DNA from: a virus
Length of the DNA: 37,240 nucleotides
IMG/VR virus record: IMGVR_UViG_3300047174_000302
Span: 1-37,240 of that record
Direction: 5' to 3' (one strand)
Of this stretch, positions 1 to 37,240 are shown piece after piece; within the stretch, counting starts at the first letter, position 1, and each line of letters starts with the position of its first letter. The position numbers and the translations under genes are program-made. The notes under the pieces are model-generated. The model was not told the DNA's origin and made no database searches. It saw only the letters and a program-made list of their open reading frames with translations.

Positions 1-1608
1 TCAGACCGCGCGATTGGCCGCGCCGTTCGCGGCGAAGGCCACCAGCGCCTCCTCCGTCAGCCCGGCGATCCGCTTCGGGTCCCAGTCCGCGTAGAACTCG
101 TGGATGCGCGCCTGGCATTCCTCCGCCGACGAGCTTTCGAGAATGATCCGCCGCACCGGCGCGAGGCTCCCGCGAAAGGCCTGCGCGAGGCTCGCGGCCC
201 CCTCAGCGGCCACCCGGTCCACGGACGCCTGGCCCGCGTCCGCCGAGTTGCCCCGGGCCGCCAGCGGCAGCAGCCCGGGCGCGGAAAAAGGTCGCGGCTT
301 CTCCCCGTCGGGATCGGCCATGTCGCCGCCCAGCCCCGGGAGCGCCGGCGGCGGCGCCTTGCGTTGAAAAGGTATGCCTAACTGCTCGCTCACCGTCTCG
401 ATGCCCTCATCGGTCAGCTCCAAGCCCGCGCTGGACAACTTCGACACCGTATCACCGAGCGACTCCTGCTCGTCCGGGGAAAGGCCGCCCCACACCGCCC
501 GCGGCGGCGCCCCGGTCAGGCCGTTGATCAGCAAAAAGGGCCGGAACAACTGGTCCCGCAAGGTCTCGCCCAGCATCTTGCTGTCGAATTGACGCAGATC
601 CTGCCGTACGCTCTCGTGCTGCTGGGAGACGCCGGAGCCCAGCCCCGTCGACTTCATGTTGGAGCTCGCCGTTTGCCCGACGATCAGCTTGGAAATCTCG
701 TCGTTGCACCGGTCCACGAACCGCTCGAACGCCTCGCCGGTCGAGCTAGTCGCCGCCTCCATCAGCTCCACCTCCGTCTCGTTTGAGACGACAAGGCCAA
801 AGATCTTCGTCGCCGCGTTGAACGCCTGGGTCAGGATCGCGCGGCTCGCATCGTCGCTCTGGTCGTACTTGCCGACGATGAACGGCGCACCGTACCTCTC
901 GAGGAACCGCGCCCACCAGTCGCGGCCCATCGACCGCAGCAGCCACCAAAAGAGAATGGACCGCATCGGCCCGCCCCAGAAGTCCGCCTCACTCAGCAGA
1001 TGCCCGCGGTGGATGATGTAGCGATTCGGGTCCGCGTCCTCCAGGTCGGCCGTCATGTAACCGCCCTGCTGGTCCAGCTTGCGCAGCTTCATCCAGCCGG
1101 TCGTGTAGTCGATGATGTTTGCCGGAACGATGTTCAACCCGCCCAGGTCGTAGCGCAGGCCCGGGCGCGTGCTCGGCACGTACCAGCGCTCCAGCATCGC
1201 GAGAGGGAAAAGGCAGCCATCCAGCAAGTGGCCGCAGGCAAAAGTGAAATTCGGCACCGCATCGAGCTGGTCCTTGATCGCGTCGCGCGCCGCCACGTCG
1301 TCCGCGTTCGTCTTGTCGGCCGGCTGCAGGCTCAGCGCATCGCCCAGCACCGCCAGCTTGCGCTTCAACATCTCCGACTGCACATGGCTGTCGGCCATGA
1401 TCACGTCGCGATACAGGCCAAAGAGGTCGCGCACGTTCCCCGTCTCGGCCGAGGCGATCACCTGCCGCAGCCGATCCACATCCATCAGGTTCGCGATGAA
1501 CGACGGCTCGCTCCCGCGATAGTTGTACCAGCCCTTAGTCGAGCGGCTGGGCACAAGCCACTCCAGCCAGTTCGCGATGGCGCTGCGGATGGGGTTTGGA
1601 TCAGCCAT
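1..1608 (-). CDS. Mu gp29-like portal protein (DUF935 family)
   Basis: This 535-residue protein matches the DUF935 family, the portal of Mu-like phages, which forms the dodecameric ring through which DNA enters and leaves the head. The N-terminus has the family pattern of a Trp/Pro-rich start, then a leader reading LRQVIASAETG and a helix-rich section DLFGLYRDVIMADSHVQSEM, near residues 46-80. The middle carries the RFLERYGAPFIVGKY segment, near residue 236, typical of these portals. The start ATG at 1608 overlaps the end of the large terminase gene by 8 bases, which suggests translational coupling. The gene ends with TGA at the first base of the window and is complete. It follows small and large terminase as in Mu, but the whole set is read leftward. 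The family call is firm; the ring function is known from homologues. Confidence 0.9.
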   Translation of the reverse strand: MADPNPIRSAIANWLEWLVPSRSTKGWYNYRGSEPSFIANLMDVDRLRQVIASAETGNVRDLFGLYRDVIMADSHVQSEMLKRKLAVLGDALSLQPADKTNADDVAARDAIKDQLDAVPNFTFACGHLLDGCLFPLAMLERWYVPSTRPGLRYDLGGLNIVPANIIDYTTGWMKLRKLDQQGGYMTADLEDADPNRYIIHRGHLLSEADFWGGPMRSILFWWLLRSMGRDWWARFLERYGAPFIVGKYDQSDDASRAILTQAFNAATKIFGLVVSNETEVELMEAATSSTGEAFERFVDRCNDEISKLIVGQTASSNMKSTGLGSGVSQQHESVRQDLRQFDSKMLGETLRDQLFRPFLLINGLTGAPPRAVWGGLSPDEQESLGDTVSKLSSAGLELTDEGIETVSEQLGIPFQRKAPPPALPGLGGDMADPDGEKPRPFSAPGLLPLAARGNSADAGQASVDRVAAEGAASLAQAFRGSLAPVRRIILESSSAEECQARIHEFYADWDPKRIAGLTEEALVAFAANGAANRAV

Positions 1609-3160
1609 GGTGTTTCACGCCTCCCTGGTCAAACATCTTCGCAAAGGGGTTCTTCCACTTGCCGGCCGGGGGCTTGACGCCAAAGCCGCCCACGCCGACC
1701 GCTTCCGCCTCGGCCGGGCCGCCGCGCGAGAGCAGTCCATGTACGGCCAGCGAGCCGGAGGTGAATGTGTCCGCGTGCCGCCCGCGAGAGTCGGTCTGGT
1801 TGACGAACAGCCCTTTCTCCTTCACCACCAAGCGCCGGTCCTCGCGGATGTAGCGATCCTCCGGGATGGCAATGGAGGCGTCTTCGTACTGGTCCACGTA
1901 GAGGCTGCCCAGGTAGGTCTTTTTCGTCATCGTCTCGCCGCGAAACTCGATCGATTCGCTCATCACCACGATCTCCATCACCACCTTGCCGGCCAGCTCG
2001 CGCTTCAAGTCGGTCATGAAGAACCGCTCATTCGTCCCGTCCCCCACCAGCCGGCGTGGCGGCCGCCCCGTGCGCGCGCGGACGCCGTCGATCGCGATGC
2101 GCACCATCGCCCGCGTGTGGTCAGGGTCATTGGTCTTGAACACCACCACGCACCGCTCGATCACCTTGCTCCCGATCTTTTGCGAGATGCAGATGGAGGT
2201 CGGGTTGCTCGTCTGGTTCTCCGTCGTCGCGGGATCCAGCCCGATGACGGTGGGGTGATCGGACAGCGTCTCCTCCCAGCCCTTCGGGTACTCGTCCTCT
2301 GCAAACACGCACTGGCCACTCCCCTGCGTCATGGCCACGTGCAACGCCGCGAGCGTGATCGCCGCAGTGCCGCCGGCCTTGAAGATCAGCGCGTAGTTGC
2401 GGTCCCACGCGTCGCGATCGAGCGCCTTGAGACGGTGCTCCGCCGGTGTGATCTCGTTGCGCGATTCGAGGTCGTACAGCTTCAGGCCCGCGGCCGCCGT
2501 GTCGTACACGTCGGCGCGATGCACCAGCACGTTGGCCTGGCTGCGGTACCAATGGCCCTTGGCGTTGGGCTCAAACTTCAGGCCCTCCGGCGGCACGGTC
2601 AGCTCGTAGGAGAAGTGCGCATCGTCGTTCGGCGGCGTGGTCGCCATCGTGACGGTGAAGTCGGGGTCCGCCGAGGCGATGGGCTCCATCGCCTCCCACA
2701 GGTCCTTGAAGTCCGGGATGAAGCCGATCTCATCCAGCATCACGTCGCCGGAGAAGCCGCGGGCCGTCGCCACGTTGGGCGCGATGATCAGCGTGCGCGA
2801 GCAAACGGTGCGGGAGTGCCACAGCTTGGCCTCCACGCGTCCGCGCTCGAAGAGATCGAGAAAGTCGTCCGCCGTCAGGCCGTCCGTGTTCGTCTCCACC
2901 TTCAGCGAGGCCTTGGCCGCATCGGTCTTCCAGGACTCGAACGCGGCCTGGATCACCGCGCCCTCCTTCATCAGCATTTCCCGGCCGACCAAAATGGAGG
3001 CCGAGCAGAACGTCACCAGCCGGCCGGGGCGCTTCATCATTTTCTTCAGCGCCCGCTTGGCCATGTTGGACGTCTTGCGTCCCTGCCGGCGCCAGAGCAT
3101 GAGGAAAAACGCCGCCTGCTGGCGAAAAACCTCCCGCTCGTAAAGCAGGGGCGGGCTCAT
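1601..3160 (-). CDS. Mu gp28-like terminase large subunit
   Basis: The 519-residue product is a phage DNA-packaging motor with an N-terminal ATPase and a C-terminal RNase H-like nuclease. A Walker A-like segment RRQGRKTS lies at residues 24-31, and a Walker B VMLDE lies at 140-144 just after a GFSGD loop. The nuclease half begins near residue 310 with VIGLDPATTENQ, whose Asp would bind metal, followed by LVGDGTNERFF, the second acidic cluster. An open frame continues 40 codons further upstream, but ATG at 3160 is preferred: it overlaps the small terminase stop as ATGA, and the upstream extension is an Arg/Gly-rich shadow of that gene. The next gene downstream is the portal. The P-loop is slightly divergent (GRKT instead of GKT), as in many Mu-like terminases. 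Confidence 0.9.
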   Translation of the reverse strand: MSPPLLYEREVFRQQAAFFLMLWRRQGRKTSNMAKRALKKMMKRPGRLVTFCSASILVGREMLMKEGAVIQAAFESWKTDAAKASLKVETNTDGLTADDFLDLFERGRVEAKLWHSRTVCSRTLIIAPNVATARGFSGDVMLDEIGFIPDFKDLWEAMEPIASADPDFTVTMATTPPNDDAHFSYELTVPPEGLKFEPNAKGHWYRSQANVLVHRADVYDTAAAGLKLYDLESRNEITPAEHRLKALDRDAWDRNYALIFKAGGTAAITLAALHVAMTQGSGQCVFAEDEYPKGWEETLSDHPTVIGLDPATTENQTSNPTSICISQKIGSKVIERCVVVFKTNDPDHTRAMVRIAIDGVRARTGRPPRRLVGDGTNERFFMTDLKRELAGKVVMEIVVMSESIEFRGETMTKKTYLGSLYVDQYEDASIAIPEDRYIREDRRLVVKEKGLFVNQTDSRGRHADTFTSGSLAVHGLLSRGGPAEAEAVGVGGFGVKPPAGKWKNPFAKMFDQGGVKHHG

Positions 3161-3816
3161 GCGCTCTCCTTCGGGTCGTCCCAGTCCTCGCCAAAGATGT
3201 GCTGGCCGAGCAGCTCGATCTTGTCCGCGTTCGTGGCGCGCGACTCGACGACCTCCTTGACCTTTTTGTCCGCGTACCACTTGAGGAAGAGCTCCGCGCT
3301 CTGCCGATGAAACTTCTGGCGGGTGAGGGAGATCATCTCGTCCCGCTGCGCGAGCGTCTTCTGCCGCAGGCTCATCTTCTCCCGCTCGTGGTCGCCGGAG
3401 CGGATCAGGTCAAGCGACTTCACCAGGTCCTTCAGCTCGCCGCCCTGCGCCTCCTCCAGCAGCTCCATGATCTTGCCGCCGGCGATGGCGGCGGAGCCGT
3501 CCGCGATGCTGCCGCCCGCCGCCTCGCCCAGCTTCAGCGCGTACTCACTCAGCGCCTTCAGGTTGTCCACCCGCTCGCGCCGGCGCAGGTGGTCCTGGTA
3601 GCCGCCCTGGCGCCACTCGGTCAGGTTTTGCGCGTTGATCGGCTGCTCGCCCCAGTGCTCGTCGAGCACCTTGAGCACCGCCTCCTCCGTGTTCAGCCAG
3701 GCGAGGAGCTGCGGGCCGCGCTGCCCATCGTCCAGGCGACGGTTCAGCTCCTGGCGAAGCGCCAGCGGCAGGCTGGCGATCTTCCCCTTGCGCGTGGGTT
3801 CGAGTTCATCCGGCAT
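3157..3816 (-). CDS. Mu gp27-like terminase small subunit (DUF3486)
   Basis: The 219-residue protein resembles DUF3486, the presumed DNA-recognition (small) subunit of Mu-like terminases. The N-terminal family signature GKIASLPLALRQELNRRL is at residues 11-28, and a helix-turn-helix-like piece NLTEWRQGGYQDHL follows near 83-96. The central part is Ala/Gly-rich and the C-terminal half is strongly charged and helical, suited to oligomerisation. It begins five bases after the endolysin stop and overlaps the large terminase by four bases (ATGA). The gp27-gp28-gp29 order is the canonical Mu packaging cassette. The assignment rests on the N-terminal motif plus position; which DNA sequence it recognises cannot be read here. 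Confidence 0.82.
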   Translation of the reverse strand: MPDELEPTRKGKIASLPLALRQELNRRLDDGQRGPQLLAWLNTEEAVLKVLDEHWGEQPINAQNLTEWRQGGYQDHLRRRERVDNLKALSEYALKLGEAAGGSIADGSAAIAGGKIMELLEEAQGGELKDLVKSLDLIRSGDHEREKMSLRQKTLAQRDEMISLTRQKFHRQSAELFLKWYADKKVKEVVESRATNADKIELLGQHIFGEDWDDPKESA

Positions 3817-5803: not shown

Positions 5804-6189
5804 TTCGCGCCTCCGCTCACCGTGCTGGCGGTGTCGATAAGGATTTCAGCTCGCTCGGCGGCAAGGTCGGCGCTGCGTCCGCGACAGTAGAGGCCGAGGA
5901 GGCCAAGGGAGGTGAGGCCGGGGGCCGTGCCTCGAAGCTGCTCACTCTCGGCGTCGGTAAGGTCGACGAGGATACCGGTGCGCAACCCGGAAAGAGCGTT
6001 GCTGCAATACTCAGCATCGCGGCGCAGCAGAGCGTCCTTGAAGTTCTTGGCATCGTCGGTGGCTTTCTGGTTGGCCGCGTCGAGGCGGCGGGTTTGCGTG
6101 GTGGAAATGACGTCGCCGGCCACCTGCACGCCGCCGGTGACCAGGTTCGCGCCGAGTTGCAGCGCCGCCGTTACAGGGTCCAGCGCCAT
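5800..6189 (-). CDS. Hypothetical protein in the lysis cluster
   Basis: This 129-residue protein is not recognised. It starts MALDPVTAALQLGANLVTGG, a small amphipathic or weakly hydrophobic helix, then a Gln/Lys/Asp-rich helix through residues 30-60, and ends in a mixed region with two Cys residues (positions about 62 and 102). No clear lipobox or signal peptide is seen. The ATG at 6189 follows the upstream stop within three bases, and its own TGA overlaps the next start, so it is a tight member of the leftward operon. The N-terminal pattern is reminiscent of small phage membrane-associated proteins, without a defined family. Confidence 0.6.
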   Translation of the reverse strand: MALDPVTAALQLGANLVTGGVQVAGDVISTTQTRRLDAANQKATDDAKNFKDALLRRDAEYCSNALSGLRTGILVDLTDAESEQLRGTAPGLTSLGLLGLYCRGRSADLAAERAEILIDTASTVSGGAK

Positions 6190-21720: not shown

Positions 21721-22512
21721 ATGGCCGCCACGACTCAACTCCTTGCTTTCCACGGGAAGGAAGCCGTCAAAACAAAGTACCTCAAGCGCGTGCGCAAGCA
21801 CCGTGAGGCCGACCAGCTTGTCCAGGGCTACGGCTACTGGAGCGGCGGCAAAGGGTGCGCCGTCGGCTGCACGCTGCACTCGAGCGACCACGGTGCCTAC
21901 GAGACCGAGCTGGGCATTCCCATCGCCCTGGCCTACGTGGAGGACACTCTTTTTGAGCGGCTGCCGGTGGAGCAGGCGCGCGCGTGGCCGGAGCGTTTTC
22001 TTAATGCGCCCGCGGTCGGGGCCGACCTCACCCTGGTTCCGCACAAGTTCGCGCTCTGGCTGCTGACGGATCCCGACTCGATCTATCCTCAGATCGTAAA
22101 AGACCAGGAGGCGAAGAAGATCATCGCTGACGTGGCCGAGCTCTATCGCCGCTTCATCGCCGGCGACAAACCGAGCGAGGCGGAGTGGGATTCCGTCTGT
22201 CAGGTCGCTCGCGAAGCGAGCGACCGCGCGTGGGCCTCGTACCACGCCGCCCTCGCCCTCGCCCGCGCCCGCGCCCTCGCCCGCGCCCTCGCCCGCGCCC
22301 GCGCCCTCGCCCTCGCCCGCGCCCGCGCCCGCGCCCGCGCCCTCGACCTCGACCGCGCCCTCGACCTCGACCGCGCCCTCGACCTCGACCGCGCCCTCGA
22401 CCTCGACCGCGCCCTCGACCTGCCTATTTTTTTCGCACTAGCGAGCCAAAAACTTCTCCGACTCATGGAGGATGCGCCGGTCCTAAACGCGAAGGAGCCG
22501 GCCAGCGCGTGA
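21721..22512 (+). CDS. Phage/plasmid protein with Ala-Leu-Arg repeat region
   Basis: The 263-residue protein begins with a conserved module (LLAFHGKEAVKTKYLKRVRK, near 7-26, then GYGYWSGGKGCAVGC and HSSDHGAYETELGIPIALAY, near 36-72) known from phage and plasmid accessory proteins of unknown function. Relatives commonly end in an Ala-rich helical repeat. Here that tail is built of coding repeats (ALARAR and ALDLDR, 22249-22422), giving an extended helical or coiled rod of roughly 58 residues, then a hydrophobic end FFALASQKLL. The repeats keep the frame. ATG 21721 has AAAGGGA upstream. The gene sits at the end of the accessory block, just before the head genes. Confidence 0.66.
   Translation: MAATTQLLAFHGKEAVKTKYLKRVRKHREADQLVQGYGYWSGGKGCAVGCTLHSSDHGAYETELGIPIALAYVEDTLFERLPVEQARAWPERFLNAPAVGADLTLVPHKFALWLLTDPDSIYPQIVKDQEAKKIIADVAELYRRFIAGDKPSEAEWDSVCQVAREASDRAWASYHAALALARARALARALARARALALARARARARALDLDRALDLDRALDLDRALDLDRALDLPIFFALASQKLLRLMEDAPVLNAKEPASA
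22249..22422 (+). repeat. Coding minisatellite (6-bp and 18-bp units)
   Basis: From about 22249 to 22338 the DNA is a run of GCCCTC and GCCCGC hexamers (about 15 units). From 22339 to 22410 four perfect copies of an 18-base unit GCCCTCGACCTCGACCGC follow, then a partial fifth to 22422. All lengths are multiples of three, so unit gain or loss keeps the reading frame and only changes rod length. Confidence 0.9.
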
Positions 22513-23042
22513 GTCTCGTGATCCCCATCCGCTTCAATCGCTGGTTCTGGTTCGAGGCCAAGGGCGCGACTCCGCGTCGTGTGGCCGGCGCCAGGCGCCG
22601 GCAGCGTCGTCACAATGAAAAGGTATCGCTGTTTCCCGAGTGGCACGACACGGAGCCGGTGGAAGATCAAATCAAGCGGATCGACGATGCGCACATGGTC
22701 AGCCAGCAGAAGAAACGTGATGAGCTCGCGCTAACCTGGCGAGCGGCGCGGGCCATGTTGCGCGAGATACCCCAGCGGCCCCGCGATCAATTTCTTGGTT
22801 GGTGGCGCAACTGCGGCCGGCCAGGGAACGCGGACGATTTTTTCCGCAACCTCCGCGACTTCGTGGCGGGCAAGCTCAACATCGACCAGATCGTGAGCAA
22901 TCTCCGGTACATCCGGCGGGTCGGATGGGAAAAGGGGGGCTGGCGAAAGGGGGATGGACGTCAGTGGTTCGTGTACGGCGATCCGTTCACCGATGAGCCA
23001 GATCCGCGGACGCTGGACTATATTCGCGAGGGAGCCGACTGA
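22509..23042 (+). CDS. Hypothetical protein before the head genes
   Basis: The 177-residue protein is not recognised. The N-terminal 40 residues are Arg-rich (FRWxWFEAK-like start, then basic). The middle is helical (IKRIDDAHMVSQQKKRDELA) and the C-terminus Trp/Gly-rich (VGWEKGGWRKGDGRQWFVYG). GTG 22509 overlaps the repeat-gene stop. It overlaps the gpF-like gene by one base (TGATG), so it is coupled to head morphogenesis. It could be a scaffold helper or an unrelated end gene of the early operon. Confidence 0.55.
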   Translation: MSLVIPIRFNRWFWFEAKGATPRRVAGARRRQRRHNEKVSLFPEWHDTEPVEDQIKRIDDAHMVSQQKKRDELALTWRAARAMLREIPQRPRDQFLGWWRNCGRPGNADDFFRNLRDFVAGKLNIDQIVSNLRYIRRVGWEKGGWRKGDGRQWFVYGDPFTDEPDPRTLDYIREGAD

Positions 23043-25411: not shown

Positions 25412-25858
25412 ATGAGCATCGCCTACCGCAACGGCATCTCCCCCGAGCTCGCGCGCCGTGCTCGGGCTGTCGCGGACCGCCGGCCCATCCTCGAGGCCAT
25501 GGGCGCCGTGTTCGTTTCCCTGACCAAGCGCGCGTTCAGCGACGCCACGCTGCGGCCCACCCCCTGGGCGCCCAACGCGCCCTCCACGCTGCGGCGCAAG
25601 AAGGGCACACTCCTGCGCGAGAGCGGCGCACTTTACCAATCCATCGCCATCACCCAGCTCACCAACGATGCCGTCACCGTCAGCAGCGATCGCCCCTACG
25701 CCGCCATCCAGCAGCTCGGCGGCCAGGCCGGCCGCGGACGCCAGGTGACCATTCCGCCGCGCCCGTTCTTCCCTGTGCTCAACGGCCAGCTCACGCCCGA
25801 GGCCCGGCGCCGCATCGACAACGTCGCCAAGCTCAAGATCGAGTCGCTGACCAAGTAG
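25412..25858 (+). CDS. Mu gpG-like virion morphogenesis protein
   Basis: The 148-residue protein matches the phage virion morphogenesis family (PF05069, Mu gpG), thought to act in tail/neck completion. Recognisable parts are FVSLTKRAFSDATLRPTPWA, then LRRKKGTLLRESGALYQSI, then PYAAIQQLGG and IPPRPFFPVL. It precedes the gpI-like genes as in Mu (F-G-I). Its last 137 bases (from 25722) are the start of a roughly 720-base unit that is repeated downstream. Confidence 0.82.
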   Translation: MSIAYRNGISPELARRARAVADRRPILEAMGAVFVSLTKRAFSDATLRPTPWAPNAPSTLRRKKGTLLRESGALYQSIAITQLTNDAVTVSSDRPYAAIQQLGGQAGRGRQVTIPPRPFFPVLNGQLTPEARRRIDNVAKLKIESLTK

Positions 25859-25998
25859 TTTTCCTTTCTTCAATTTGGTCCATTGGGTCATTCCGTAACT
25901 TGCCTTCTTCGGCAGCAAGTCCGGTCCGCTGCGCGCGACCGCTGAGAACCGGTCTCACCGTTTCGCGACGGCATTCACTTTCCGCCACCTTCGCCGGA

Positions 25999-26439
25999 GT
26001 GCCCACCGCCGACTCGATCAACGGACGCCCTCTTTCCTTCGTCATCAGCAATGGCGCCAAGGATGCCAAGGCGCTGCCGGAACGCCTTAAGCTCCTGCGC
26101 TGGGGTAGGAACGAGACGGTCTGGGGCCCCGTCACCGTCGGGCCTCAAACGCTCAAGCGGCTTTCCGCCAACCAAAAGTCGTTCGGCTTCGATCACATCG
26201 CGCTCGATTACAATCACCAGACCGTCCCCACGTCGCCCAACCACAAGAAGGACTCGGTCGAGGTCGCCGCGTACGGCGTGCCCGAGGTGATCGAGGGCGA
26301 CGGCCTCTACCTCAACATCACGGAGTGGACCGAGTCCGGCCGGCAGCATGCCGGCAGCTACCGCGAGTTTTCCCCCATGGCGCAGCTCAACGACGACGGC
26401 GAAGTCATCTTCCTCCACTCCGTCGCGCTCTGCCGCTAG
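25999..26439 (+). pseudogene. Truncated gpI-like copy (N-terminal protease-like domain only)
   Basis: From the GTG equivalent to that of the full copy (25999), 146 residues run in the same order as gpI: DSINGRPLSFVISNGAKDAK, LSANQKSFGFDHIALDYNHQ and GDGLYLNITEWTESGRQ. It stops at TAG (26437-26439) where the full copy has CAG (27157-27159). It contains the whole domain that precedes the scaffold part, so it might still work as a stand-alone protease domain rather than being dead; an open frame upstream to 25900 also exists. Called pseudogene because of the duplication and the created stop. Confidence 0.6.
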
Positions 26440-26442
26440 GGC

Positions 26443-26579
26443 GCCAGGCCGGCCGCGGACGCCAGGTGACCATTCCGCCGCGCCCGTTCTTCCCCATCCT
26501 CAACGGCCAGCTCACGCCCGAGGCCCGGCGTCGCATCGACAACGTCGCCAAGCTCAAGATCGAGTCGCTGACCAAGTAA
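26443..26579 (+). pseudogene. Start-less 3' fragment of the gpG-like gene
   Basis: This stretch repeats the last 45 codons of gpG (QVTIPPRPFFPILNGQLTPE and on to ESLTK, then TAA) but lacks any start, being created by the tandem duplication. Three differences (VL to IL and silent changes) show it is not a recent copy. It should not make protein unless by read-through. Confidence 0.75.
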
Positions 26580-26718
26580 TTCCCTTCCGTCAATTTGGTC
26601 CATTTGGTCATTCCGTAACTTGCCTCCTTCGGCGCCAAGTCCGGTCCGCGGCGCGCGACCCCTTTGAACCGGCCTCACCGTTTCGCGCGCCGGTGCGCTT
26701 TCCGCCACCTTCGCGGGA

Positions 26719-27732
26719 GTGCCCACCGCCGACTCGATCAACGGACGCCTCATTTCCTTCGCCATCAGCAATGGCGCCAAGGATGCCAAGGCCCTGCCCG
26801 AACGCCTCAAGCTGCTGAGCTGGGGTAGGAACGAGACGGTCAAGGGCCCCGTCACGGTTGGCCCGCAGACGCTCAAGCAGCTATCGGCCAACCAAAAGTC
26901 GTTCGGCTTCGATCACATCGCGCTCGATTACAATCACCAGACCGTCCCCAGCTCGCCCAACTTCAAGAAGGACCCCGTCGAGGTCGCCGCGTACGGCGTG
27001 CCCGAGGTGATCGAGGGCGACGGCCTCTACCTCAATATCACGGAGTGGACCGAGTCCGGCCGGCAGCACGCCGGCAGCTACCGCGATCTCTCCCCCACGC
27101 CGCAGCTCAACGACGACGGCGAAGTCATCTTCCTCCACTCCGTCGCGCTCTGCCGCCAGGGCGCGGTGGACGGCCTCACTTTCTACAGCGCCAGCTTCCT
27201 CAACCCCGCCTCGCTCCAACCCCACACCGCCATGCCGACCCCCGCCCTCGATCCGAAAACCTCGCTCGTCACGCTCCTCAAGACGCTTGGCGTCACCCTG
27301 CCGGACAACCCGACCGACGCGCAGATCATCGACGCCGCCACCAACTTCAAGCCGAACATGGCCGCCACCGCGACCATGACGCCGGAGCTCAAGAAGTTCG
27401 AAGAGCGCCTCGTCTCGCTCGAGGCCGGCAACCAGAACGCCGCGCGGGCCGCCATCGTCGAGCGCGCCACGTCCGCCGGCAAGGTTATCCCGCTTTCCGT
27501 CGAGGAGATCAACCAGCTCTCGCCCGCCGTGCTCTCCTCCATGGTGGAGAAGCTGCCCGCCACGGTGCCGCTGGATTCCCGCACCAAGCCCGGCGCGACA
27601 CCGGCGGCCTCGGGCAAGGTCACCACGCTCACGGCCGAGCAGCGCGCCATCTGCAAGCGGCTCAACATCACCGAGGAGAAGTACCTCCTCACACTCCAGG
27701 CCGAGCAGCCCGCCAACCTCACCGTCGTTTAA
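26719..27732 (+). CDS. Mu gpI-like head protease/scaffold
   Basis: The 337-residue protein is like Mu gpI (PF10123), a protease with a C-terminal scaffold part used during prohead assembly. The N-terminal domain has LSANQKSFGFDHIALDYNHQ, then VAAYGVPEVIEGDGLYLNI, and then TFYSASFLNP, near residues 55-165. After a Pro/Ala linker the C-terminal half is helical, charged and Ala-rich (PELKKFEERLVSLEAGN), as a scaffold should be. GTG 26719 is chosen because an in-frame TGA at 26665 closes the frame upstream; ribosome site is poor. In Mu, capsid protease and scaffold can arise from one gene by an internal start. Decoration and capsid genes follow. Confidence 0.82.
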   Translation: MPTADSINGRLISFAISNGAKDAKALPERLKLLSWGRNETVKGPVTVGPQTLKQLSANQKSFGFDHIALDYNHQTVPSSPNFKKDPVEVAAYGVPEVIEGDGLYLNITEWTESGRQHAGSYRDLSPTPQLNDDGEVIFLHSVALCRQGAVDGLTFYSASFLNPASLQPHTAMPTPALDPKTSLVTLLKTLGVTLPDNPTDAQIIDAATNFKPNMAATATMTPELKKFEERLVSLEAGNQNAARAAIVERATSAGKVIPLSVEEINQLSPAVLSSMVEKLPATVPLDSRTKPGATPAASGKVTTLTAEQRAICKRLNITEEKYLLTLQAEQPANLTVV

Positions 27733-28245: not shown

Positions 28246-29256
28246 ATGCAAATCAACGACGGCAATCTCCGCGATCTTTACCGCGGCTACCGCACCCTCT
28301 TCGACGAGGCGCTCCAGGGCGCCACGCCGGTCTCCGACCCGCTGGTCATGACCGTGCCCTCCACCAACAACGAGGAGAAGTACGTCTGGCTCGGCGCCGT
28401 GCCCGGCATGCGCAAGCTGCTCAACGAAATCGAAATTCGCAACCTGAGCGCGTCCAACTTCACGGTCGCCAACGCGGAGTTTGAGGACACCGTCGCCGTT
28501 CGCCAGGTGGACATCGAGAACGACAACTACGGGATCTACAACCCCTTCTTCTCCGCCATGGGCATGGCCGCGCGGTTTGACCAGGACGTGCGCGTCATCC
28601 CGCTGCTTCTCGGCGGTTTCAGCGCCACCAGCACGGTGGACAGCCAGGGCACGCTCAGCGGCAACGACTACACCGGCTCGCCTTACTTCTCCGCCGGCAA
28701 GATCCGCACCCCGGGCGATCCGGGTTTCTCCAACGTCCTGGTGGCCGGTGGCAACATCACGGCCAACGCCCCGCTCAACATCTACAGCTACCGCGCTGCG
28801 CGCGCCAACCTCATGTCGCGCGTCAACGCCCAGGGCCGGCCGATGAACCTCGGCCGCAAGCTCCAGCTCGTCGTGGGCGCGGGGCTCGAGCCCACCGCGC
28901 GCCAGATCCTGGTGGCCGACACGGTCATCCAGGCCAACACCGGCAACACCTCGGTCGCCGCCGTCACCAACGTGGACAAGGGCACGGCCCAGATCATCAC
29001 CAGCCCGCTGATCGACAACAGCTCCACGCCGGATGCGTGGTTCCTGCTCGAGACCGGCCTGGCGGTCAAGCCGCTTGTCTGGCAGGTGAACAAGGCGCCG
29101 GTCCTCACCTCGCTCACCGCGCCGGATTCGGACCACGTGTTCAAGAAGCACGAGTTCCTCTACCAGGCCTATGGCCGCTACGCCGCAGGGTTCCTGCTCT
29201 CCGACCTCGCCTTCGGTTCGAAGGGTACCGGCACGGCCATGACGGCTTACCCGTAA
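28246..29256 (+). CDS. Mu gpT-like major head protein
   Basis: The 336-residue protein matches Mu gpT (PF10124), the major capsid subunit. Typical pieces are LYRGYRTLFDEALQGATPVS at residues 11-30, NNEEKYVWLGAVPGMRKLL near 44-62, and VRQVDIENDNYGIYNPFF near 87-104. A late section KHEFLYQAYGRYAAGF near 304-319 contains the conserved YGRYAAGF. The order protease, decoration, capsid is the Mu order. ATG 28246. It is the best-supported structural gene of the window. Confidence 0.9.
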   Translation: MQINDGNLRDLYRGYRTLFDEALQGATPVSDPLVMTVPSTNNEEKYVWLGAVPGMRKLLNEIEIRNLSASNFTVANAEFEDTVAVRQVDIENDNYGIYNPFFSAMGMAARFDQDVRVIPLLLGGFSATSTVDSQGTLSGNDYTGSPYFSAGKIRTPGDPGFSNVLVAGGNITANAPLNIYSYRAARANLMSRVNAQGRPMNLGRKLQLVVGAGLEPTARQILVADTVIQANTGNTSVAAVTNVDKGTAQIITSPLIDNSSTPDAWFLLETGLAVKPLVWQVNKAPVLTSLTAPDSDHVFKKHEFLYQAYGRYAAGFLLSDLAFGSKGTGTAMTAYP

Positions 29257-29285: not shown

Positions 29286-29735
29286 ATGCCTTATGTCGTC
29301 CAAAGTGACCTCAGTGCCGACATCCCGCCGCAGTTCTTGCTGCAGGCGCTGGATGACGATGGCGACGGCGTCCAGGACGCGGGGCTGTGGGACCTGATCT
29401 CCCAGCAGGTCAGTGACGCGATCGACGCGCACGTGGGTGTGCGCTACCGCGTCCCCCTGGTGCCGGATGAGGTGAAGTATCCGGCGACCAGCGGCTATCC
29501 GCCCATCATCGTCAACGCCGCGCGCGTCCTCGCCGCGGAGAAGATCTACGGCCGGCGCGTCGGGGATGAGAAGAACCCGTGGGTCGGTCGCGCCAACGCC
29601 GTGCGCGAGCAACTCTCGCTCATCTCCAAGGGCAAGCTGCCGCTGGATCCCGACGACCAGCGCGCCGATCCCAGCGCCTCCATCATCACGGACCGCCTGC
29701 AAACCCAGCCCTGCGGCAGCCGCCTCGCGCTCTAA
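29286..29735 (+). CDS. Mu gp36-like neck protein (DUF1320)
   Basis: The 149-residue protein matches DUF1320, the head-tail connector-type protein after the capsid gene in Mu-like phages. It includes PYVVQSDLSADIPPQFLLQA at its start, AIDAHVGVRYRVPL in the middle (the conserved RYxxPL) and YPPIIVNAARVLAAEKIY. It follows the major head gene by 30 bases. ATG 29286. Confidence 0.8.
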   Translation: MPYVVQSDLSADIPPQFLLQALDDDGDGVQDAGLWDLISQQVSDAIDAHVGVRYRVPLVPDEVKYPATSGYPPIIVNAARVLAAEKIYGRRVGDEKNPWVGRANAVREQLSLISKGKLPLDPDDQRADPSASIITDRLQTQPCGSRLAL

Positions 29736-30406: not shown

Positions 30407-30769
30407 ATGCCCACGCCCGCCACGCCTCAACTCATCGGAACCGGAATTGCCAACGTCACCTGGGGTATCTCCGGGGTCGCCTACACCGGCATCTGCACGT
30501 CGATCAGCGTCAAGCGCGACGGCGAGCAGACCGTCATCTATGACGGCAACGGATTCACCATCGGCCAGATCCTCTTCGACGATCACGACGAGGCCACGAT
30601 CGAGATGGTGTTGCAGACCACCGACACCATCCCCACGCGCGGCGCCCTGGTCACCATCGCCGGCCAGACGGGCCACATCATCCAGAACATCGAGAAGATG
30701 TATTCGTGGAAGGACATGGCCAAGTGGCGTTTCACCAGCAAGCGCTTCGTCAACCTGGCCACGTCCTAA
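30407..30769 (+). CDS. Small tail protein (tube-like candidate)
   Basis: The 120-residue beta-rich protein (ITSISVKRDGEQTVIYDGNG-like middle, TIGQILFDDHDEATIEMVLQ, GALVTIAGQTGHIIQNIEK) follows the neck gene by six bases and precedes the chaperones. The position and beta pattern suit a short tail tube protein or tail-terminator, but it is shorter than usual for tubes. Confidence 0.48.
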   Translation: MPTPATPQLIGTGIANVTWGISGVAYTGICTSISVKRDGEQTVIYDGNGFTIGQILFDDHDEATIEMVLQTTDTIPTRGALVTIAGQTGHIIQNIEKMYSWKDMAKWRFTSKRFVNLATS

Positions 30770-30796: not shown

Positions 30797-31333
30797 ATGG
30801 AAACCGAATCACCATCGGTCGAGGAAGGCGCGCCGGATGCCGAGCTGATCCAGGGCACCGACCCGGCCAAGCTGCAGGAGATGCACGAGCGGCTCGCCGC
30901 CGCCTCGAGCAAGACGCCGGCGGTCGCCCGCCACGCGCTCGCGCCGTCGGCGTTGCAAGGCCCCGGCCTGCGCCTGCACGTCTACACCGTCCAGACGCAG
31001 ATCAACCTCGAGCAGCTCTACTCGCCCTTCGTTCGCCGCGGCCAGGCGCAGAAGGAAATCAGCTTCGCCGAAGTCCGCAACGCGCTCTGGGCCATGTCCG
31101 TGCCCGACGAGCAGGTAGAGGATTTGCTCTACGCCGGCGGCGACACGTTGCGCCACGTGCTCAGCGCGTTCGGCGCCTCCATCCCCATGGGCCAGCTTGC
31201 GCCCCTGGCCGCGCTCATCAACGAGAACATCGCGCGCGCCTTCGAGCCCAGCGCGCACCTCAACCCGCCGCACAAGGAGGGCGAGACCAGCACAAATTTT
31301 ACAGCTCCGGCAACGGCGCCGGCTGGCTCCTGA
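30797..31333 (+). CDS. Tail assembly chaperone, short form (gpG-type)
   Basis: The 178-residue helical protein (ELIQGTDPAKLQEMHERLAA, LHVYTVQTQINLEQLYSPFV, ISFAEVRNALWAMSVPDEQ) sits between the tail tube candidate and the tape measure, where siphophages encode the G/GT tail chaperones. Near its end it crosses a slippery heptamer (31294-31300); zero-frame reading continues 10 more codons to stop at 31333. ATG 30797, ribosome site AGGAGA upstream. Confidence 0.75.
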   Translation: METESPSVEEGAPDAELIQGTDPAKLQEMHERLAAASSKTPAVARHALAPSALQGPGLRLHVYTVQTQINLEQLYSPFVRRGQAQKEISFAEVRNALWAMSVPDEQVEDLLYAGGDTLRHVLSAFGASIPMGQLAPLAALINENIARAFEPSAHLNPPHKEGETSTNFTAPATAPAGS

Positions 31334-31485
31334 CGCTGATCGACACGCTGGCCAACGAGTACGGCTGGCCGCGTCGCGAGATCCGCCGCACGCCGCTGGC
31401 CGAGGCCCGGGCCCTGCGCACCGCCATCGCCCTCCGCCACGGCTGGGAGTGGGGCGAGCCCAGTTACATCGAACGCGAAACTTGA
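30797..31485 (+). CDS. Tail assembly chaperone, -1 frameshift long form (GT-type)
   Basis: A -1 slip at A AAT TTT (31294-31300) joins the first 168 residues to 61 residues of the overlapping frame starting at base 31300. These read YSSGNGAGWLLTLIDTLANE then YGWPRREIRRTPLAEARALR, and the frame ends at 31485. Coordinates are join(30797..31300,31300..31485), 229 residues. The extra domain has clear protein-like helices, contrasting with the short zero-frame tail. In siphophages the long form helps load the tape measure with the tube. The tape measure starts ten bases after its stop. Confidence 0.8.
31294..31325 (+). promoter_or_regulatory. Programmed -1 frameshift site with downstream hairpin
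   Basis: AAATTTT at 31294-31300 lies exactly in frame as A AAT TTT, an ideal X-XXY-YYZ slippery heptamer. Six bases later CCGGC (31307-31311) pairs with GCCGG (31318-31322) around a six-base loop, and CAG (31302-31304) can pair with CTG (31323-31325) across a two-base bulge. Spacing and structure fit known phage tail chaperone sites. Confidence 0.82.
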
Positions 31486-31494
31486 CCAACGCAC

Positions 31495-33951
31495 ATGCCT
31501 GATCCCGTCTACGCCTCCACGATCACGTTGGATGGATCGCAGTACCTGGCGACCAACGCCAAGGTGCTCGAGGCCACGGCGAAGATCGATGCGTCGCTGG
31601 CCCGGCTGCGCGCGCAATTCGCCCAGATCCTCACCGCCCTCGCGCCGCTGCAGGCTGGCCTGGGGGCCGCTGCCGCCGCCCTGGGCGCGTTGGGCAACGA
31701 CCGGGCCACGGATAGCCTCCGTAGCGTCTCCGGCGCGCTGGCGGGCATCACCGAGCGCGCGGAGGGTGCTGCCATCGCGCTGGAGGATGTGGCCAACGAG
31801 GCTTCCGGCGCCGGCAGTGCGCTGGAAGGCGATGAAGGTCCCGGTGATGAGTCCGCGCAGCATCCGCGCAGCGATGGACCGGGCCGGCCCCACCGCGGTG
31901 CTGAGCGCGTGGAGGATTTCGCCAGCCACGTTCACACCGTCGGCGCCGGCGCGGCGGCGGTGGGCGCCCTCGATGTGCAGCAAACCGCCCTGCGCGGCGT
32001 CGAGCAGGAGGAGCGCCGGGTGGAGCAAACGACACGCGAGCTGGCCGAGGCCGTCACGCGCGAGTCCTCAGCCCATCAGGTCGCTTCCGTCTCCGCGCAC
32101 GAGCAATCCACCGCGTTGACCGAGACGGCCGCGCGCCAGGAGCACGCCGCCGCCTCCACCCATCGGCTCGCCCAGGAAACGCGCGATGCCGGCCTTGGCT
32201 TCCGTGGCCTGGGAGAGAACGCCAGAAAAGCGGGCGAACTCATCCGCGATGCACTCCTCGCCGTGCCCGAGGTCGCCGCCGTGGTTGGCGTCTTTGCCTC
32301 GCTCGAGGAGGTGACCAAGAAGATCAGCGAGAGCTTCAGCTATGGGGACCAGCTTAACGCCATGGCGCGGGAGACGGGCCAATCCGCCGAGGCCATCGCC
32401 GCGCTGCGCCGCACCTTCCAGTACTTCGATGTGGATGCCGGCAGCGTCACCACCACGCTCTTCATGATGCAGCGTGCCCTCGGCGGCGTGAGCGATGGCG
32501 GGGAGCCCACCGCCGCCGCCTTTGGCCGCATTGGCCTTTCCATCCAGCAGCTCAAGGCCATGGAGGCACCCGAGGCCTTCGCTGCCATCCAGCGCGGCCT
32601 TGCCACCCTGCCGGACCAGGCGGACCGCGCCAACGTGGCCATGAAGATCTTCGGCCGCTCCGCGCTCGAGGTGCAATCCATCCTCAACGCCAGCCCGGCC
32701 GACTTCGCCGAGTCCATGAGCGCCGCCCGGGAATACGCCAACGTCATGGGCTCCAATGCCGGCATGTTTGAGGAGATCGAGCGCAAGTTTTTCGTCCTGA
32801 ACGAGCAGGTTGAAACCGTCTTCGCCAAGATCGCCGGCGCGCTCGCTCCGGCCATTGGCCAGGTGCTCGATCTCGTCAACCAGGTCGACTTTTCCAAATG
32901 GGGCGACGGCATCGCCGGCGCGATTCGCTTCCTCACGAATGCCTTTGGCAGCGGCCAGATCACCGACCTCATCGGCACCGGCCTGCGCCTCGCCTTCGAG
33001 GAGGCGGTCAACTTTCTCGTCAATGCCCTGGCCGGCATCCCGGACCTGCTCAACGCGATCGACGATCAGATCTTCAACCCCGACAAGTGGACGGGCATCG
33101 CCCAGATGCTTAAGGGTGCGGCCGAGGCGTTCGGCGCCGGCATGATGGAGGCGGTCAAGGGCCCGATCAACGCCATCATCAGCGCGGCCAACTATCTTCC
33201 CGACAAGGCCGTCGCGCGTCAGGCGCTGGGCAGCCAGCTCAAGATTGTGGGGGACCTCCAAAAGCAGGTCGCCGCCGACGACTCCCACATTGAAGGGCTC
33301 GGCAACCAGCGCGATCAGCACAAGTGGGGTACGCCGGAGTATCAGCACTTTGACGAACTTCTCAAGGCGGCAGGGGAGCGGCGGGATCGAGATCAAAACG
33401 AGGCCAGCAAGCAGGTTGCTGCCATGCAGGACATGGCTGCAACCGCTAAGGAGTCCTTCTCCGACTACGTCGCCAGTCACCAGAACGACGACATCACCCT
33501 CGGCGGCAAGAGCCACGACCAGCTCGTCGCCGATTCCGGCACGGATATCACCGAGGGATCAGCCAAGGCCAGTGCCGATCTGGCGCCGATCGGCGACGCG
33601 ATCAAGTCCATTTTCTCCGAGGGCAAAGGCCTCCAGCTCTTCACTGACAACCCCGACCTCCGCGCGAGGCTGGCCGATCTTTACAAGATTCTCTCCGCCA
33701 TCCCCAAGGCGGACGATGTCGCCAAGCGCGCCGCGCCCGCGATCAACGAGCAGACCGGCTACAACTACAAGCTGCCCGAGGGCGATCGCCTAGCCAAGGT
33801 CGGTCTCTTCCTCGGCTCCGCCGCCGCCTCGCCCGGCTTGAGCGAACTGCGCCGCACCGCCAACGCCACCGAGGCGACGGCGAAGGCTGTCGCCCGGATC
33901 GTGAACGTTACGGGCGGCCGTCCAGGCCAGACCACCGCCGTTTACATGTAA
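31495..33951 (+). CDS. Tail tape measure protein
   Basis: The 818-residue protein is the longest of the tail region and lies just after the chaperones. It is mostly Ala-rich helical/coiled-coil, with a hydrophobic section (ELIRDALLAVPEVAAVVGVF, near residues 244-263) as in tape measures. A tail-measure-like domain (DQLNAMARETGQSAEAIAAL; FGRSALEVQSILNASPADFA) covers about 280-420. The tape measure sets tail length and helps deliver DNA. A stretch near residues 110-145 is Gly/Pro/Asp/His-rich and differs from the rest. ATG 31495. Confidence 0.82.
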   Translation: MPDPVYASTITLDGSQYLATNAKVLEATAKIDASLARLRAQFAQILTALAPLQAGLGAAAAALGALGNDRATDSLRSVSGALAGITERAEGAAIALEDVANEASGAGSALEGDEGPGDESAQHPRSDGPGRPHRGAERVEDFASHVHTVGAGAAAVGALDVQQTALRGVEQEERRVEQTTRELAEAVTRESSAHQVASVSAHEQSTALTETAARQEHAAASTHRLAQETRDAGLGFRGLGENARKAGELIRDALLAVPEVAAVVGVFASLEEVTKKISESFSYGDQLNAMARETGQSAEAIAALRRTFQYFDVDAGSVTTTLFMMQRALGGVSDGGEPTAAAFGRIGLSIQQLKAMEAPEAFAAIQRGLATLPDQADRANVAMKIFGRSALEVQSILNASPADFAESMSAAREYANVMGSNAGMFEEIERKFFVLNEQVETVFAKIAGALAPAIGQVLDLVNQVDFSKWGDGIAGAIRFLTNAFGSGQITDLIGTGLRLAFEEAVNFLVNALAGIPDLLNAIDDQIFNPDKWTGIAQMLKGAAEAFGAGMMEAVKGPINAIISAANYLPDKAVARQALGSQLKIVGDLQKQVAADDSHIEGLGNQRDQHKWGTPEYQHFDELLKAAGERRDRDQNEASKQVAAMQDMAATAKESFSDYVASHQNDDITLGGKSHDQLVADSGTDITEGSAKASADLAPIGDAIKSIFSEGKGLQLFTDNPDLRARLADLYKILSAIPKADDVAKRAAPAINEQTGYNYKLPEGDRLAKVGLFLGSAAASPGLSELRRTANATEATAKAVARIVNVTGGRPGQTTAVYM

Positions 33952-36454: not shown

Positions 36455-37240
36455 ATGGCGGAAGGCGTCGCGAACCTCTACTTCGACTTCGGCGCCTACG
36501 CCGCGCCCAGCCGCTGCATCCTCAGCGGCCTCACCTCCAGCACCCCGCAGACGGACTGGGGCTTCGTCGCGGGGGACCAGCTCCAGCTCGTCCTCTGGCC
36601 GCGCAACATCCCCGCCGCCATCGGCGGCGCCACCACCACCCAGCGCCTCAACCTCGGCTCCATCATCGTCACCGGCAAGCCCACCACCAACCTTGCCGCC
36701 ACCACGCTCTTCTTCGAGGCCATCAACTTCGTCGAGGCCAACACGGAGGAGGACGACAGCGGCGACTGGTCTTACACCGGCTACCTCAACCTCAACACCA
36801 CCGAGCTCATCGCCGCCGTCGGCAGTGAGGAAAGCACGCCCTTCCTCCTCGTCATCGACGTCATCGACTCCACCGGCAAGCCCCAGCGCTGGCTCGCCGA
36901 GATCACCGTCTACAACCCCGTCTACACCGGCAGCGAGGGCAGCCCCACGCCTGCCACCCCCGCGTTCTGGACCGCCGCGCAGACCCAGCTCAACTGCCTC
37001 AACAACTGGAATTTCATCACCGACACAGGCGGCGGCACGGCCACCAGCCTTAACGCCCAGCCCACCGCCGGCGCCATCGCGCTCGGCACCCAGGTCGCCC
37101 TGCGCGGGATCTCGACTGTGAACAGCGGCGGCTACTCGATCTGGGAGTACAGCACCAGCGCGCCGGCGGGCGCGGCCACCGTGCAGCCGCTCGACTACAA
37201 CGCCTCCACCAACCCCGGCAAGTGGGTCCAAGTTCTATGA
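36455..37240 (+). CDS. Terminal tail-fibre-like protein
   Basis: The 261-residue protein is beta-rich (VANLYFDFGAYAAPSRCIL; QLQLVLWPRNIPAAIGGATT; RWLAEITVYNPVYTGSEG) and ends in Gly/Ser/Thr-rich blocks (GYSIWEYSTSAPAGAATVQP). It is probably a fibre or tip protein. The gene ends exactly at the last base of the window with TGA, so it is complete, but further fibre genes, the phage's right end and its attachment site lie beyond view. Confidence 0.6.
   Translation: MAEGVANLYFDFGAYAAPSRCILSGLTSSTPQTDWGFVAGDQLQLVLWPRNIPAAIGGATTTQRLNLGSIIVTGKPTTNLAATTLFFEAINFVEANTEEDDSGDWSYTGYLNLNTTELIAAVGSEESTPFLLVIDVIDSTGKPQRWLAEITVYNPVYTGSEGSPTPATPAFWTAAQTQLNCLNNWNFITDTGGGTATSLNAQPTAGAIALGTQVALRGISTVNSGGYSIWEYSTSAPAGAATVQPLDYNASTNPGKWVQVL

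Follow-up and report, generated by a model that had tools for sequence, protein, structure and literature searches.

A Mu-like phage with a very probable programmed −1 ribosomal frameshift in its presumed tail assembly chaperone gene

The 37,240-base virus record IMGVR_UViG_3300047174_000302, analyzed over its whole length (positions 1–37,240, hereafter the window), carries the slippery heptamer A_AAT_TTT at 31294–31300 on the plus strand. The record is that of a Mu-like phage, probably of Verrucomicrobiota, and we conclude with high confidence that the heptamer serves as a signal for programmed −1 ribosomal frameshifting within its tail assembly chaperone gene. The heptamer is in phase with a 178-aa ORF (30797–31333, plus strand), where its zero-frame codons are AAT TTT, and the zero-frame stop, TGA, follows at 31331–31333. 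The −1 frame is open from the heptamer through a stop at 31483–31485 and encodes a T-like extension of 61 residues after the shared Phe (31301–31485 with the stop, plus strand). A shift at the site has the −1 relation and would join 168 zero-frame residues to these 61 in a fusion of 229 aa. The initial annotation had described just such a heptamer with a short zero-frame tail and a 61-residue −1 extension, and direct reading of the sequence bears this out.

The letters AAATTTT are not significant by themselves, because the window holds a single copy, both strands counted, where 0.9 would be expected by chance. Shuffling the codons of the window gene produced an in-phase heptamer of the form X_XXY_YYZ among its final 75 nt in 0.5% of trials.

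Comparison with relatives carries most of the argument. A search of viral contigs with the 178-aa protein alone found no close relatives, and these were reached instead through the major head protein and through the extension. The four relatives reached through the head protein contain homologues of the extension at 36–72% identity (tblastn), each in the −1 frame of the upstream ORF and each with its own in-phase X_XXY_YYZ. A profile of the extension then returned 32 viral loci and 7 genome loci. Six of these seven are titled Verrucomicrobiota, namely Geminisphaera colitermitum TAV2 (two), Verrucomicrobia bacterium LW23 (two), an Opitutaceae MAG and a groundwater MAG. The seventh, L044 from a Bacteroidaceae MAG, lacks the two-frame arrangement and was taken as a chance match. 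Among the 44 records examined before duplicates were removed, 40 have the −1 arrangement with a heptamer, one (L016) has a −2/+1 relation, and three (L018, L025 and L044) have neither. Among the 40, some contigs are present more than once, and 17 are freshwater contigs that all have G_GGA_AAG and were left out of later counts as a distant group. A further search of 387 genomes of the phylum Verrucomicrobiota gave matches in 12, from which 13 loci were examined (L045, a repeat of L040, is not among them). Eight of these are new loci with a −1 heptamer, L057 repeats L005, three (L050, L054 and L055) are single-frame, and L056 shows neither arrangement. Together with the 15 loci obtained before, the eight from Verrucomicrobiota genomes make up 23 distinct two-ORF loci.

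Every one of the 23 distinct loci with a homologous second-frame extension has an in-phase X_XXY_YYZ no more than 76 nt before the first stop, and the frame relation is −1 in 22 of them. At 15/15 loci a heptamer occurs among the final 75 nt of the zero-frame ORF, compared with 3 of 129 control genes from the same 15 records and 2.6% of 75-nt control windows; the preceding 405 nt of the same 15 zero-frame genes contain two heptamers in all. In the eight further loci, 7 to 76 nt separate the heptamer from the stop. Conservation of the heptamer had been proposed as a check on the site, and what is kept in all 23 loci is its kind and place, while its exact letters vary (A_AAA_AAR, C_CCT_TTR, G_GGA_AAA and A_AAT_TTT). 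This conservation, together with the position before the tape measure gene, strongly supports the earlier proposal of a programmed −1 frameshift in the tail chaperone genes.

Some relatives depart from this pattern. The one exception in frame, L016, has a run of 8 A around position 5960 where most relatives have 9, and its −2/+1 relation means either that it shifts by −2, as Mu does, or that the homopolymer run contains an error. The two closest relatives of the window have C_CCT_TTG, in which A-site re-pairing is imperfect (UUG to UUU). By the rule given in PMC4066793 this is a weaker slip type, which counts against the frameshift reading. Nor is the shift universal among more distant relatives, because the T-like stretch lies within one long open frame in L018, L050, L054 and L055 and forms a separate ORF in L025. 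The four single-frame loci are perhaps natural in-frame fusions made without a shift, and the apparent single frame of L050 is what one would expect were the fusion itself an important product.

The extension itself is under selection in the −1 frame, as judged from substitutions between the window and its two nearest relatives, L002 and L007. In the stretch read only in the −1 frame, mismatches at −1 codon positions 1, 2 and 3 number 12/50, 11/51 and 24/51 against L002 and 13/50, 14/51 and 26/51 against L007. Upstream of the site, zero-frame position 2 is the most conserved in the same comparisons. Ten residues of the extension are invariant across 15 loci.

How this selected block is translated can be explained in more than one way. 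It could be a separate overlapping gene that uses its own start by reinitiation or coupling and needs no frameshift, a reading that draws on the separate ORF of L025 and on possible ATG, GTG or TTG codons that stand just ahead of the conserved block, in its −1 frame, in L015, L031, L034 and L043. The window, however, has none of these codons in the −1 frame from 30724 to the conserved block, nor inside the block up to 31345, and 13 of 22 records have none at all from the opening of the −1 frame to the match. L004 and L008 have no start codon there either: their −1 frame opens only at the A-run or immediately ahead of it, and reading the block in them therefore needs the upstream ORF. A separate gene would also leave the in-phase heptamer in 23/23 loci unexplained, and we consider this explanation very improbable. 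Slippage by the polymerase on a homopolymer run, rather than by the ribosome, would likewise yield a fusion and is plausible for the many relatives in which 7 to 9 A stand in a row. No such long run exists in the window, whose site is AAATTTT, or in L002, L007, L009, L047 and L048, which have CCCTTTR, so transcriptional slippage strikes us as still less probable than a separate gene.

The two ORFs might, finally, be one in truth, split by a sequencing or assembly frameshift or by decay of the gene. The single long frames of L018, L050, L054 and L055 would fit such an error, yet records assembled independently, and carrying different heptamers, are split at this very point, and on each side of the site the substitutions obey the frame read there. 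This reading, which conservation already contradicts, is the least credible of the three alternatives.

We next consider which elements could stimulate the shift. A hairpin six bases downstream of the heptamer had been part of the initial annotation, and such a structure can form at 31303–31328 on the plus strand. Its 5-bp inner stem (31307–31311 with 31318–31322) starts six bases after the heptamer and has a predicted −8.5 kcal/mol alone, or −12.3 kcal/mol with the outer stem at 31303–31328. It does not rise above background: the region downstream of the heptamer folds no better than its shuffles (z +0.74) and is not clearly more stable than the window's remaining coding RNA (z −0.57), and a consensus fold of the three closest sequences (window, L002 and L007) contains no compensatory change or covariation. 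Taken over 15 loci, the first 50 nt past the heptamer do show somewhat greater stability than control coding RNA (mean z −0.96), an effect hardly seen in the window. The rule that a hairpin should start 4–10 nt downstream (PMC4066793) describes 16 of the 23 loci, including the window, but also a fraction of 0.505 of 200 control positions. Of the structures in the 23 loci that conform to this rule, the most stable belongs to L049 (reverse strand), where a long hairpin of 36 nt follows G_GGA_AAA at an offset of 6 with −25.5 kcal/mol.

Upstream of the heptamer, the window has a Shine-Dalgarno-like AAGGAGG (31274–31280, plus strand; 13 nt from the heptamer), an element absent from the initial annotation. 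Its duplex with the anti-Shine-Dalgarno sequence has −11.2 kcal/mol, a strength reached at 0.2% of in-phase positions in the genes of the window, and its AGGA, GGAG and GAGG at spacings of 16, 15 and 14 fall within the published spacing rule for such elements (PMC4066793). The same rule describes 11 of 23 loci, compared with a fraction of 0.179 of 2784 control positions. AAGGAGG is probably the better candidate stimulator of the two, with an effect predicted from its pairing and spacing.

The element may also vary with the heptamer. It conforms to the spacing rule at 6/6 loci with T-containing heptamers (A_AAT_TTT and C_CCT_TTR) and at 5/17 with A_AAA_AAR or G_GGA_AAA, an exploratory comparison in which the grouping was chosen after looking and two of the six are sisters; a protein reading of Lys-Glu-Gly or Glu-Gly-Gly could alone favor Shine-Dalgarno-like letters. 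The corresponding comparison by energy gives a one-sided p of 0.004, again chosen after looking and with the kinship of related loci ignored. One lineage might have rebuilt its signal repeatedly, offsetting a weaker heptamer with an internal Shine-Dalgarno element, an idea that we put forward tentatively and think rather doubtful. If it is true, the family would be a natural series for the trade-off between slipperiness and rRNA pairing at a constant product ratio. Heptamers of the R_RR.U_UU.Y class, to which A_AAT_TTT of the window belongs, are shiftier in E. coli than the general rule for mixed motifs predicts (Sharma et al., 2014, PMC4066793).

The genomic setting is that of a Mu-like phage. 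Its head genes include Mu F at 23042, a virion morphogenesis protein at 25412, the Mu-like protease at 26719, the gpT major head protein at 28246 and gp36 at 29286, all on the plus strand. On the same strand there follow a 169-aa protein, a probable tail tube protein of 120 aa (30407–30769), the 178-aa ORF and, at 31495–33951, an 818-aa tape measure protein that matches PHROG tape-measure profiles (best E 1.2e-13). The 120-aa protein has no profile match; it is conserved in relatives and was assigned by place and size. With the Mu-type portal, the window thus holds the portal, F, protease, gpT and gp36 proteins that define a Mu-like phage. The hosts of relatives, where named, are Verrucomicrobiota, and this is probably the host group of the window phage as well.

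Several further features of the record were seen. The Mu-type portal and presumed terminase genes lie at 1–3816 on the minus strand, far from Mu F, a placement that differs from the gene order of Mu; in the relative L004 both lie on the strand of the tape measure gene and come after it. The record begins and ends (1–3 and 37238–37240) with stop codons of ORFs, that of the portal and that of a 261-aa ORF respectively. The record looks like a provirus trimmed at gene borders, and genes past the ends may be missing. A repeat of about 450 bases (25711–26159 and 26432–26879; spacing 720–721, 87–94% identical) duplicates the last part of the virion morphogenesis gene together with the beginning of the Mu-like protease gene, leaving one truncated copy of each between the intact genes. 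Within the ORF at 21721–22512, a tandem array of 9.7 copies of the 18-base unit CGCCCTCGCCCTCGCCCG (22248–22421) encodes Ala/Leu/Arg and Leu-Asp-Arg-Ala-like protein repeats.

Taken as a whole, the earlier interpretation is supported in part. Place and architecture fit a tail assembly chaperone: the gene lies after the tube gene, itself assigned by place and size, and directly before the tape measure gene. We base the chaperone name on these two features because neither the 178-aa protein nor the fusion is recognized by a chaperone profile in PHROGs or Pfam and no significant fold match was obtained. A weak Pfam NBD_C match to the 178-aa ORF (E 0.0052; 17.7 bits, below the cut-off of 28.3) was dismissed as chance, and the fusion had no match at E 0.1 in a tblastn search of 50,697 phage records. 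An AlphaFold2 model (pLDDT 76.7, pTM 0.61) gave 0 matches at E ≤ 0.001 in BFVD, and 5 of the best 50 rows, all above E 0.001, are named as tail assembly (chaperone) proteins. At rank 3 (E 0.26) stands a 190-aa protein of phage RcapNL, equated by length alone with a CDS that is flanked by the major tail protein and the tail/tape genes, and therefore a hint only. Fold searches of the PDB returned nothing at E ≤ 0.001, with a best Z of 3.3 that is not interpretable.

The frameshift had also been offered as support for a long non-contractile tail, a use that it does not bear. Phage Mu has a contractile tail with a sheath. The frameshift says nothing on tail type, because contractile-tailed Mu also frameshifts here. 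A non-contractile tail is favored instead by the missing sheath gene, a judgment from gene content: Phage_sheath_1 (PF04984) was found in none of four records including the window, which may be cut at their ends, while control genomes were positive, and no sheath-sized ORF lies between gp36 and the tape measure gene.

Most ribosomes, as we infer the process and its efficiency, would terminate at 31331–31333 and release the 178-aa, G-like chaperone. A minority would pause as AAGGAGG (31274–31280) pairs with the 3' end of 16S rRNA, the hairpin perhaps helping, and would slip back one base on A_AAT_TTT to produce the 229-aa G-T fusion. If the products work as they do in lambda, the common domain would coat the tape measure protein, the extension would recruit tail tube subunits, and the ratio of the 178-aa to the 229-aa product would set assembly.

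Frameshifted tail chaperones are a well-known trick of tailed phages, and the window offers a well supported but ordinary case that leaves the general picture of frameshifting in these phages unchanged. In the open-access literature on Verrucomicrobia Mu-like or transposable phages, prophages and tail-assembly frameshifts, we found no report of this site. It does give functional names to two proteins that otherwise lack matches, in a group of Mu-like phages of Verrucomicrobiota. It also teaches that such a gene should be annotated as a short product plus a fusion rather than as a single short ORF, and it provides a series of related sites in which four kinds of heptamer occur.

The heptamer of phage lambda is G_GGA_AAG and thus differs from that of the window, whose proteins also have no detectable similarity to catalogued chaperone profiles. 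The architecture is the same: lambda makes a short zero-frame product, gpG, and a −1 fusion, gpGT, near the 3' end of the gene, which work with the tape measure protein (PMC5009743), and the window gene likewise combines a common domain with a frameshifted extension directly before the tape measure gene. Among Mu-like phages, the flexible-tailed Pseudomonas siphophages of the D3112/PaMx73 group have a proposed −1 shift on T_TTT_TTC between tail assembly ORFs 35 and 36 (PMC4378225); they share with the window a −1 shift proposed at this place in a Mu-like genome but have another heptamer, and their proteins are not detectably related. Mu itself shares the head module (Portal_Mu, Mu F, Mu-like protease, gpT and gp36) and a frameshifted chaperone, whereas its shift is −2 (PMC5009743), that of the window is −1, and the window has no sheath match. 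Bacterial −1 signals are described as a heptamer with an upstream Shine-Dalgarno-like element and an optional downstream hairpin (PMC4066793), and E. coli dnaX is a signal of this type (PMC5600365). The window differs from dnaX in its gene, in its heptamer and in a Shine-Dalgarno-like element placed 13 nt from the heptamer, and resembles it in combining that upstream element with a slippery heptamer and a possible downstream hairpin.
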